This document shows positions 18,167 through 23,710 of a stretch of DNA of 64,000 nucleotides, piece by piece. The translations under genes and the position numbers were made by a program. Source of the stretch: Desulfurellaceae bacterium bin18 (GTDB taxonomy: Bacteria; Desulfobacterota; Binatia; Bin18). Where the stretch lies: the NCBI GenBank assembly GCA_002238415.1, contig MPMI01000005.1, positions 62,001 to 126,000 on the forward strand. The letters are read 5' to 3'. The first letter of the stretch is position 1; each line of letters begins with the position of its first letter. The notes beneath the pieces were generated by a model, which searched no databases, was not told the DNA's origin, and saw nothing but the letters and a program-made list of their open reading frames with translations.

Positions 18167-18203
18167 ACTGCTCGCCTGTTCTCTATGAAGAGGGAATTGA
18201 AAC
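18167..18203 (+). CRISPR. Solitary degenerate CRISPR repeat (R1)
   Basis: From 18173 the sequence CGCCTGTTCTCTATGAAGAG continues GGAATTGAAAC, matching the array repeat with one change. The first ~6 bases have diverged. There is no second repeat at one spacer distance; instead a gene starts 27 bases downstream. R1 is 706 bases from the next repeat (R2). Confidence 0.85.
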
Positions 18204-18230: not shown

Positions 18231-18791
18231 ATGAATAAGCACAAGCTCCGGGAATTGATGACTCATTTGCAATCAATTCCCCATTATCCGCATCCACCCA
18301 AAATAGACTATGATTTTACCGGATACCAAGAACCAGTGGAATCTTCGCTGACCACATATCCCGATTACTTTTCGATGGATTATCATTGTGACATTTTACA
18401 CGAAAAAAGCGGCGACATTATGGTTGGCGATCTCGCGGCTCACGGTCTTGTCATGCAAAACTGCTTTACGGGCGTGCCGGATGAGCCGAAGGGATTCCGA
18501 CAGCATGTAGCCGCATTTGCCACGGCGTTTGCCATGCCATCGAAAGTGGCGTGGGAATTGGCGTGGCCCCATCTGAAAGATACCTGGCGTATCACTTCAG
18601 CAGAGATGGCCCGAGCTTTGGGAAAGGCGCTGAATGGTGGGACACTCGTCTACCATTTGTGGGATCATGTATTTGATCGATGTCCCATGACAGAAATAGC
18701 GCATGCCGGATATGATTTGGAAGTTCGGAAACAATGGGAAGGGTTTGATTCCTTACCGTGGTATTTGCGAGATGGAGAGGAAGGAACATAA
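18231..18791 (+). CDS. Hypothetical protein located between CRISPR repeats
   Basis: The 186-residue protein starts at ATG after GTGAGGAGAATCACC. I do not recognise a family. It is rich in His, Trp and Tyr, has no membrane segment, and contains SAEMARALGKALNGGTLVYH in its second half. It starts 27 bases after solitary repeat R1 and is followed after two bases by a micro-ORF that ends inside repeat R2. The pair thus occupies a cassette bounded on both sides by CRISPR repeats. A plasmid or phage origin is likely. Confidence 0.6.
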   Translation: MNKHKLRELMTHLQSIPHYPHPPKIDYDFTGYQEPVESSLTTYPDYFSMDYHCDILHEKSGDIMVGDLAAHGLVMQNCFTGVPDEPKGFRQHVAAFATAFAMPSKVAWELAWPHLKDTWRITSAEMARALGKALNGGTLVYHLWDHVFDRCPMTEIAHAGYDLEVRKQWEGFDSLPWYLRDGEEGT

Positions 18792-18793
18792 CG

Positions 18794-18931
18794 ATGTTTC
18801 CTCAAGCAGAATTGGATGCCATGTGGGCACAGGCGGTGGCCGGCATTCCGAAAAAGAAATCGGGACGACCAAAAGGTTCGCGCCGAAACAAACCCGCACC
18901 GAAAAGCAAGTTACACGCCTGTTCCCTATGA
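18794..18931 (+). CDS. Basic micro-protein ending inside CRISPR repeat R2
   Basis: The 45-residue ORF encodes MFPQAELDAMWAQAVAGIPK and an AT-hook-like basic stretch KKKSGRPKGSRRNKPAPKSK. Its last seven codons lie in repeat R2, which supplies the TGA stop. The G-R-P-K-G core resembles DNA minor-groove-binding AT hooks. It follows the 18231 gene by two bases. The repeat may have replaced its natural 3' end. Confidence 0.5.
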   Translation: MFPQAELDAMWAQAVAGIPKKKSGRPKGSRRNKPAPKSKLHACSL

Positions 18932-19532
18932 AGAGGGAATTGAAACAGTACTGCTCACGAAAATCAATCGCGATTTGCTTTTGGTTACACACCTGTTCCC
19001 GATGAAGAGAGAATTGAAACCTTATTTTTGCCACGATTATCAAGATTTGATAAGTGTTACACACCTGTTCCCGATGAAGAGGGAATTGTGCGACATGAAG
19101 TCGCTTAAGGTGATGGTCCATTTGGACCCAGCTAGTATACAGACTGACATCACGACCCACATGCGTCCTGAGTAATCGGGGGGGTGTGAAGCTGGGACGA
19201 AAGCCTAATGGCAGCGAGAACCATAATCAAAGCCAGGGCAAGATGTAGGTTGACATGGTGAACGAAAGTGAATCCTTGCACAAGTAGGCGTCGTTACCTC
19301 CAGCTTCCGAAATCTATGGTTGATACGGAAGTATTGAGACAACAGAAGTACTAAACTCAAGCGATCATACGGGCAGCGGAAACGCCAGCCGTCAGCGGGG
19401 TTATGCGGTCATATGACTCACATACTCTGTCACCTTCAAGCTACCATCGCTTGAGCCGTGTGCCGTGAGAGTGGCACGCACCGTTCTTAGAGGGGAAAGG
19501 AACTGAAAAGTTCCCAACCTACTCGACGAAAC
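18910..19532 (+). CRISPR. CRISPR mini-array (R2-R4), last repeat interrupted by a group II intron
   Basis: Three 37-base repeats start at 18910, 18984 and 19056. The unit begins GTTACACACCTGTTCCC and ends GAGGGAATTGAAAC; the terminal ATTGAAAC resembles a type III/I 5' crRNA handle for rightward transcription. Spacers are 18947-18983 (37) and 19021-19055 (35). Repeat R4 reads 19056-19087, then 440 bases of intron, then its last five bases GAAAC at 19528-19532. R2 and R3 differ by a few bases. The nearby cas10 remnant suggests a type III system that has lost most genes. Confidence 0.93.
19088..19527 (+). ncRNA. ORF-less group II intron inside CRISPR repeat R4
   Basis: The 440-nt element begins GTGCG (5' consensus GUGYG) and ends CTCGAC (3' AY). 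A 34-nt domain V sits at 19453-19486: GAGCCGTGTGCC, loop, then GGCACGCACCGTTC, with the catalytic AGC-type strand. A domain VI hairpin GGAACT-GAAA-AGTTCC follows at 19498-19513, with an unpaired A near the 3' end. No reverse transcriptase/maturase ORF is present. Splicing at these ends would join AATT to GAAAC and restore a perfect 37-base repeat. It would need a maturase in trans, or splices poorly. Class is not assigned. Confidence 0.9.
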
Positions 19533-19534
19533 CT

Positions 19535-19813
19535 GTGACTGGCCATGTCCCCCCAGAAATCGTGATTGCCTTTTGGGGACGCTGTGAAAGCTATCATATC
19601 CCCAAAGACCTCGCACTACAAGAAGCAATGGAATTGTGGATGAAGAAACCGTTACCACGAAAGAAAGCAACACCCCAACAAAAACCAAACGGAGGTGCGT
19701 ATAAGGATACAGTGAAAGCAAGAAAACGCCGGAAAAAGCCAACAAAACCCAGCAACGTAGAGAAAAGGAGGCAAATTATTCAACAGCATGAAACAGCAGC
19801 CAAACAATCGTGA
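19535..19813 (+). CDS. Lys/Arg-rich hypothetical protein next to the interrupted repeat
   Basis: The 92-residue frame opens with GTG two bases after the repeat ends. It has a folded-looking head (IVIAFWGRCESYHIPKDLAL, then QEAMELWMKK) and a very basic tail with KARKRRKKPTKPSNVEKRR. The start is uncertain: an internal ATG at 19628 is possible. If the intron is removed, the repeat's GAGGG would lie about 11 bases before the GTG and could serve as a ribosome-binding site; unspliced RNA lacks one. Likely a small nucleic-acid-binding plasmid/phage protein. Confidence 0.5.
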   Translation: MTGHVPPEIVIAFWGRCESYHIPKDLALQEAMELWMKKPLPRKKATPQQKPNGGAYKDTVKARKRRKKPTKPSNVEKRRQIIQQHETAAKQS

Positions 19814-19816
19814 TTG
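19805..19816. promoter_or_regulatory. Palindrome upstream of the 19840 gene
   Basis: CAATCGTGATTG is a dyad with 5-base arms around GT. The same 12-mer lies at 20417-20428, before the ParB-like gene, and 11 of 12 bases recur at 19557-19568. Likely a shared operator. Confidence 0.45.
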
Positions 19817-20416: not shown

Positions 20417-20428
20417 CAATCGTGATTG
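20417..20428. promoter_or_regulatory. Palindrome upstream of the ParB-like gene
   Basis: A second exact copy of CAATCGTGATTG lies 47-58 bases before the ParB-like start. See 19805-19816. Confidence 0.45.
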
Positions 20429-20474
20429 CTGTTGTGACACCTTGTATGATGGAAGCCTGTCAGGAGAAAAACGT

Positions 20475-21440
20475 ATGGCCGAAAAACGCACAGCAAAACC
20501 GACTTCGATGGACGCAACCGAGTTCATTGAAAAAGTATCCGTTATTGAAGGCAGCAATATCCGCCTCGATCTAGGAGAGATCGAAGAATTTGCTAAAGAA
20601 ATCCAGGGCCAAGGCCAACTCTACGAGAACATCCGCATCCGTGAGGCGACAGCCGAAGACAAAGCAGCCGGCGTCACGACTCCTTATGCTTTGAATGCGG
20701 ACGGCCACCGGCGACATGCGGCTCTGGCCTATCTGGTCGAAAACGATTTGGTTGAAGATTTTGCGGAAGTTCCGGTCACAGTTGTGTGTGCCGGTACTCG
20801 CACCGATGTTTTGGTGGAAATGTTGGCAACGGGTTCGGAAGTGGACAAAAAAGCGCTCACAGCCGTGGAGGAAGCCAACGGTTTTACCCAACTTCGGGAC
20901 GAGGGCCACTCGGTTGAAGAGATTGCCAAACTGGTCGGAAGGACCGGGCAGTTTGTTCGAGACCGGATGCGATTGTGGAAAGCTTCGGAAGAGTTGAAAG
21001 ACGCTTCGAAAGACCTGTCCAAGGGCGGAATCGGTACATCGATGGCCGTTCAGATTGCTCGGGCACATCCTGACGATCCTGAGAAGCAGAAAGAACTTGT
21101 GGCCCGCGCCCAACAAGGCCCAGAAGCGCGAAGCGAGATTAGCCGCGAACTCGACATGGATGGCGGAAAAAAGCGCCGCGAAAGGGAAGAGGAGGTTCGG
21201 GAAACCCAACTCAAAGAGTATTTGTCCTCACTGAGGAATCTGATCGTAGACGCGCAAAAGAAGCGCAACTGCCCGCAGGAGATCAAGGACATCCGGCTGG
21301 ACAGCGAGGACCCGCTCGACAAAGTGGCCGATGGGTCCACCCTGAACCGGATTATCTTTGCCTACGGTAAAGCCCGAGGTGCTCTGGAAGCCTTGGGCGG
21401 CGAAGATGCTGACAAGACCAACATCTGGGATTACTCCTAG
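20475..21440 (+). CDS. ParB/Spo0J-like nuclease-HTH protein
   Basis: The 321-residue protein has a ParB-type N-terminal domain (IRLDLGEIEEFAKEIQGQGQ, then ALNADGHRRHAALAYLVEND near residue 75, matching the GERR box region). A helix-turn-helix follows: LRDEGHSVEEIAKLVGRTGQ, then FVRDRMRLWKAS, near residues 140-170. A charged coiled region completes it. Such proteins bind centromere-like sites of plasmids and phages or regulate genes. No ParA partner is present. TCAGGAGAAAAACGT precedes the ATG at 20475. It runs into the decayed cas10 gene on the opposite strand. Confidence 0.82.
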   Translation: MAEKRTAKPTSMDATEFIEKVSVIEGSNIRLDLGEIEEFAKEIQGQGQLYENIRIREATAEDKAAGVTTPYALNADGHRRHAALAYLVENDLVEDFAEVPVTVVCAGTRTDVLVEMLATGSEVDKKALTAVEEANGFTQLRDEGHSVEEIAKLVGRTGQFVRDRMRLWKASEELKDASKDLSKGGIGTSMAVQIARAHPDDPEKQKELVARAQQGPEARSEISRELDMDGGKKRREREEEVRETQLKEYLSSLRNLIVDAQKKRNCPQEIKDIRLDSEDPLDKVADGSTLNRIIFAYGKARGALEALGGEDADKTNIWDYS

Positions 21441-23382: not shown

Positions 23383-23420
23383 CCTATCATTTGATAGGAA
23401 AATGCCTATCGTTTGATAGG
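23383..23420. repeat. Tandem palindromes, 22-base period
   Basis: CCTATCATTTGATAGG (23383-23398) and CCTATCGTTTGATAGG (23405-23420) are dyads with 7-base arms, spaced 22 bases, and each followed by AAAATG. This is typical of a cooperative binding site for a regulator or partition protein on one DNA face. Confidence 0.55.
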
Positions 23421-23710
23421 AAAATGGCCCGGCTCTTCCCCGGCGACGGGCCGGGACGCTCAAGGCGGGAGCCGGGCGCTACGCGCACCGCGCACCGCCG
23501 CGCGAACGGGGGAAAGGGCAGGGCGGAAGCGGCGAAGAACCAGTGCAAAAGGAGACACTCCCCAGGTGCGCCGACCGCGCCCGGCACCGCGCCCGAGCAA
23601 GGGCCTTGCCCAGCGCTGGGGAGACCCGCCGCGCGCACCGGCAGAGCCGGGCCACCAGCCCCCCCATTCCGCCCCGGCCCGAGCTGTACGCGGGAGGGGA
23701 ATAGGCCCTG
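23421..23710. other. Very GC-rich noncoding stretch
   Basis: About 290 bases of strongly GC-biased sequence with long open frames on both strands that encode only Ala/Pro/Arg/Gly-rich low-complexity peptides. No gene is supported. Its composition contrasts sharply with the AT-rich repeat element next to it. Confidence 0.5.

Follow-up and report, generated by a model that had tools for sequence, protein, structure and literature searches.

An ORF-less, reduced group II intron in the terminal repeat of a small CRISPR array

The window analyzed here, a 64,000-nucleotide stretch of contig MPMI01000005.1 from Desulfurellaceae bacterium bin18, contains a CRISPR repeat that is divided in two by an inserted element. 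The locus raises the question of whether a group II intron really lies inside the repeat and, if it does, whether it could still splice and thereby affect maturation of the CRISPR RNA.

Placement of the intron in repeat R4

Four copies of a 37-nt repeat are present in the window, all on the forward strand: R1 (18167–18203), R2 (18910–18946), R3 (18984–19020), and R4, which is the split copy. The first 32 of the 37 bases of R4 (19056–19087, the 5′ exon) include the repeat hairpin TTCCC-GATGAAGA-GGGAA and are followed by a 440-nt element (19088–19527, same strand) that begins with GTGCGAC and ends with CTACTCGAC; the missing bases, GAAAC (19528–19532, the 3′ exon), come directly 3′ of it. Excising the element gives a 37-nt R4, GTTACACACCTGTTCCCGATGAAGAGGGAATTGAAAC, that matches R2 at 35 of 37 positions and R3 at 36, in agreement with the original prediction that the element-free repeat differs from R3 by a single base.

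The termini of the element follow the group II pattern (5′ GUGYG, 3′ AY), with GTGCG at 19088 and GAC at 19525–19527. The sole Rfam match within the whole window was RF00029 (group II domains V–VI; cut-off, 40 bits), which aligned to 19451–19527 with 57.3 bits and ended on the final intron base. The match covers 77 of 77 model positions, and the domain V and domain VI hairpin predicted for the element are both present. An intron elsewhere in the same genome (contig C5, 39410–42280) has the same ends, GTGCGAC...CTACCCGAC, and its excision restores an open reading frame, joining VIYDHEGN to FVEFFSPDD; it is one of two related introns of the genome that show this boundary. The ends of the window element are thus fixed independently of the repeat, by the 3′ end of the RF00029 match and by the ends of the C5 intron. 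An independently fixed 3′ end mattered because GAAAC alone recurs by chance at other distances; given such an end, the chance that GAAAC forms the next five bases is approximately 1 in 1000. Repeat alignment, the RF00029 end, and the C5 intron ends together confirm the proposed structure of R4 as 32 bases, a 440-nt element, and GAAAC.

The starts of R2, R3, and R4 are spaced 74 and 72 nt apart, which is the regular spacing of a CRISPR array, and the intervening spacers on the same strand are 37 nt (18947–18983) and 35 nt (19021–19055) long. R1 is displaced: it lies 706 nt from R2, matches it at 32 of 37 positions, and has diverged in its first 6 bases. R4 is the last repeat of the array; neither its terminal position nor the distant R1 featured in the original prediction. 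The R1–R2 gap carries a gene (18231–18791) with a homologue, 68% at the DNA level, on contig C29. Neither spacer matched a phage or plasmid sequence, and the spacer cores had no exact counterpart in viral contigs; no further repeats of the R1–R4 kind were found elsewhere in the genome, and the repeat query produced zero exact matches in the viral contig and genome contig collections.

Several other features were recorded in this neighborhood. A 45-aa ORF (18794–18931) runs into R2 and has its stop codon within the repeat; the corresponding site of C29 (L045) carries an ORF with a similar start and a different continuation. Four copies of the near-palindrome (C/A)AATCG(T/C)GATT(G/T) fall in a 1.5-kb stretch (18965–18976, within a spacer; 19557–19568; 19805–19816; and 20417–20428), and another copy is located 5′ of the C29 homologue of ORF 18231–18791, although the occurrence of such sites across the whole window does not clearly exceed chance. 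The product of a ParB-like gene (20442–21440) has its closest counterparts, at ~30% identity, among the ParB-like proteins that Vibrio and Gordonia phages encode. The G+C content between 18.1 and 21.4 kb is 0.48–0.51 compared with 0.57 in the surroundings, and this stretch may be an integrated element. Further downstream (23383–23426), two tandem copies of CCTATC(A/G)TTTGATAGGAAAATG lie beside a region that is rich in G+C and contains long inverted repeats.

Retained and missing parts of the intron

The related introns on contigs C5 and C68 each encode a group II RT-maturase (TIGR04416, 366–380 bits) with RVT_N, RVT_1, and GIIM domains, and the C68 protein additionally contains an HNH domain. 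We take this domain set to be that of chloroplast-like IIB introns. The window element has its ends (GTGCGAC...CTAC(C/T)CGAC), the fold of 5′ domain I, and domains V and VI in common with the C5 and C68 introns, but it is only 440 nt long compared with ~2.9 kb and is devoid of their ORF, domains II–IV, and EBS1 hairpins. The element probably belongs to the IIB/chloroplast-like lineage, RT-encoding members of which are still present in its own genome. The C5 intron (L010) is full length and sits inside a VOC/glyoxalase-like coding frame; the ~1.1 kb ahead of its RT frame is longer than in its relatives. The original prediction had proposed searching the genome for the same intron and for a free maturase. 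The element itself proved to be single copy; the C5 and C68 introns are related to it, and the two RT-maturases that were found are encoded within these introns.

BLAST aligned positions 1–249 of the element with C5:42035–42280 at 69% and its domain V region with domain V of the C68 intron at 88%. Over its first ~250 nt, the element can be aligned to domain I from RT-encoding group II introns of the same genome and genus; this alignment and the RF00029 score bear out the proposed group II ancestry. Domain I spans 19088–19441 and is conserved in its 5′ part, to ~19340, with the remainder unrecognizable. A consensus fold was built from six relatives with the window element left out; in the 5′ part of domain I, the element keeps 42 of the 44 testable pairs, five of them with pair types absent from the relatives. 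The domain is closed by a helix of 12 bp with one bulge (19103–19114 with 19429–19441), and 12 pairs were reached in 12 of 2000 shuffled controls. RF02012 scored below its cut-off on the element, and the interior (19343–19428) had no match within the genome. Domain V (19453–19488) has an AGC triad and a GAGA tetraloop. Domain VI (19489–19527) has a 6-bp distal stem and, at 19521, a bulged A, the putative branch A, which is 7 nt away from the 3′ terminus. A 10-bp inverted repeat (19356–19365 with 19446–19455) was evaluated as a possible new stem for domain IV and rejected; it overlaps the start of domain V and competes with it.

The intron retains most of domain I together with domains V and VI. 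The gap between the closing helix of domain I and the start of domain V is only 11 nt, and in the alignment with the relatives, domains II, III, and IV are absent, with domains II and III placed by position. The element has no ORF, with 7–8 stops per frame. The stretch that holds the EBS1 hairpins of the relatives is also absent from the alignment, and the sole hexamer in the element complementary to the exon sequence GGAATT (G-U allowed) is part of the domain VI stem, leaving no EBS1–IBS1 pairing. An IBS1-complementary hexamer (G-U allowed) is found in the domain I hairpin region of five of the six relatives (C5, C68, G002, G001, and G009), in C68 and G009 without any G-U pair; a match of this length is expected in about one-third of random 100-nt stretches, which makes single relatives weak evidence and gives more weight to the overall pattern. 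A C.C mismatch adjoins the AGC triad of domain V, where the C5 and C68 introns have a C-G pair. Group II catalysis relies on J2/3, domain III, and exon binding; therefore, unaided splicing of the element is unlikely.

Cas context and origin of the insertion

A congener assembled as one contig (G006, 98% complete) has a repeat identical to R4 at 32 of 37 positions, present in seven copies at intervals of 70–75 nt. This array is located downstream of Cas6, Cas3, Cas8a-like, and Cas7 genes and in the same sense, and another genome (G011) has an array with a related repeat. Because G006 carries its repeat beside type I cas genes, the window repeats are, on the basis of sequence similarity, genuine CRISPR repeats of a type used by a known type I CRISPR-Cas system. 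The 37-nt repeat is common to the window and the G006 array (L041), in which the spacers measure 33–38 nt; the G006 array is uninterrupted, with seven repeats and an adjacent cas operon, whereas the window array is small and its R4 is interrupted. Neither the G006 Cas6 protein nor PF10040 detected a Cas6 in the bin18 genome (96%-complete assembly), and Cas1 matches were located on contigs C20, C74, and C75, one of them near a long type I-E-like array. Since no Cas6 was found, no further repeats of this kind exist in the genome, and the Cas1 matches are on other contigs, the window array is probably orphaned, as judged with a single Cas6 protein and a single Cas6 family in an assembly that is 96% complete. 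Two other arrays were noted in the same genome: a long one whose repeat is type I-E-like and which neighbors a Cas1 match (L053, 9331–13641), and a short one built on another repeat (L053, 14973–15147).

Type I repeats usually provide an 8-nt handle at their 3′ end. Because the 3′ end of the repeat, ATTGAAAC, corresponds to such a handle, Cas6 is presumed by analogy to cut R4 between bases 29 and 30 (GAGGGA^ATTGAAAC), and the intron starts 3 nt downstream of this presumed cut. R4 is the last repeat and the cut would lie upstream of the intron, so the crRNA of the preceding spacer would not need splicing; likewise, as R4 is last, its handle should serve no crRNA. The insertion could therefore be nearly neutral. 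The original prediction that the intron links splicing to crRNA maturation found no support here, given the terminal position of R4, the presumed cut upstream of the intron, and the failure to find Cas6; the loss of domains II–IV, the ORF, and an EBS1 match, together with the mismatch beside the triad, is further evidence against it.

We consider it likely that the element is a reduced, probably splicing-defective remnant of a group II intron in the terminal repeat of an orphan type I array. In this reading, a mobile group II intron would have entered the last repeat of a small type I array between its bases 32 and 33, facing in the sense direction. Presumably it arrived by reverse splicing into DNA, aided by a maturase that a full-length intron supplied. 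Internal deletion may have come after arrival, in an ancestor that had a maturase and later lost these parts, or before it, if a reduced form was mobilized in trans; because EBS1 is gone, these orders are indistinguishable from the present sequence. Splicing would then have been lost or strongly reduced. What speaks against a remnant is that the 5′ half of domain I is well kept, with compensatory changes, that the bulged A of domain VI is retained, and that neither half of the repeat has decayed, so that the insertion may be fairly recent. The conservation of domain I indicates that the lineage was long under RNA selection and could still be, and the related maturases of the genome could act on the element in trans.

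The same features could belong to a functional miniature intron, consisting of domains I, V, and VI, that splices with a trans-acting maturase from C5 or C68 and restores R4 in the pre-crRNA. The compensated pairs and closed helix of domain I, the putative branch A, and the two full maturases in the genome would all fit, and ORF-less bacterial introns nearly always co-reside with related introns, the proteins of which possibly help in trans (PMC4424553). We nevertheless regard splicing of this form as unlikely: there is no EBS1 for the GGAATT exon, J2/3 and domain III are missing, a C.C mismatch sits beside the triad, and splicing would restore only a terminal repeat with a handle that is not used by any crRNA.

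The insertion point immediately 3′ of the repeat hairpin (TTCCC...GGGAA) would also be expected if the lineage homes to CRISPR repeats by hairpin or sequence, as IIC introns do to terminators. Such site-directed invasion is highly improbable because the relatives in the same genome are located elsewhere (C5 in a VOC-like coding frame), their proteins are of RVT_N/HNH types and apparently not typical IIC, R1–R3 are uninterrupted, and scans for interrupted-repeat patterns gave chance hits only, none with a domain V. IIC-like terminator homing itself was rejected in view of the protein type and insertion sites of the relatives. An assembly artifact or chimera that fused an intron copy to the array would be compatible with a genome assembled in 83 contigs and with a single-copy element, but both repeat halves are exact and abut the intron termini with single-base precision, and neither the intron nor this repeat has a copy elsewhere in the genome that could drive a misjoin; we hold this to be extremely improbable.

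Recurrence and comparison with known systems

Across the order (16 genomes) and the phylum (395 genomes), no other full-length copy of the element was detected; the matches there were limited to domain V or domain I fragments of other introns. Interrupted-repeat patterns produced 15 hits in the viral and genome contig collections, none with a domain V and several in one recurring coding motif; additional 5′- and 3′-junction patterns, run against viral contigs, gave nothing beyond chance hits. The intron query had no match in phages, and its four matches in plasmids (47–78 nt) were confined to the domain V–VI part. The literature searched, which leaves out most subscription journals, described no group II intron within a CRISPR repeat, consistent with the original prediction that the arrangement is undescribed; an archaeal paper matching "introns in CRISPR" concerned CRISPRi strains instead. 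These data indicate that a CRISPR repeat does harbor a reduced group II intron here, and that this arrangement is rare and, as far as we found, undescribed.

Even as a remnant, the element shows that group II retroelements are able to insert into repeats that encode crRNA, here at a position where a processed array should tolerate them. If the element does splice, it would rank among the smallest known group II introns and pose the question of whether a pre-crRNA can undergo splicing. Strong reduction, with several domains missing, also characterizes the group III introns of Euglena. Those introns are 90–120 nt long, organellar, and spliced (PMC4424553), and we claim no relation between them and the window element. 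Dependence on related maturases is a feature of ORF-less bacterial group II introns (PMC4424553), and the element resembles them in encoding no protein while related maturases are present elsewhere in the genome; it differs in that it also lacks the inner domains and occupies a CRISPR repeat instead of a gene. Insertions of IS elements and prophages into CRISPR arrays or repeats are known (PMC10359306) and resemble the present case in that a mobile element breaks up the repeat or array, whereas the element in R4 belongs to the ribozyme retroelements, reads in the sense direction, and shows no target duplication.
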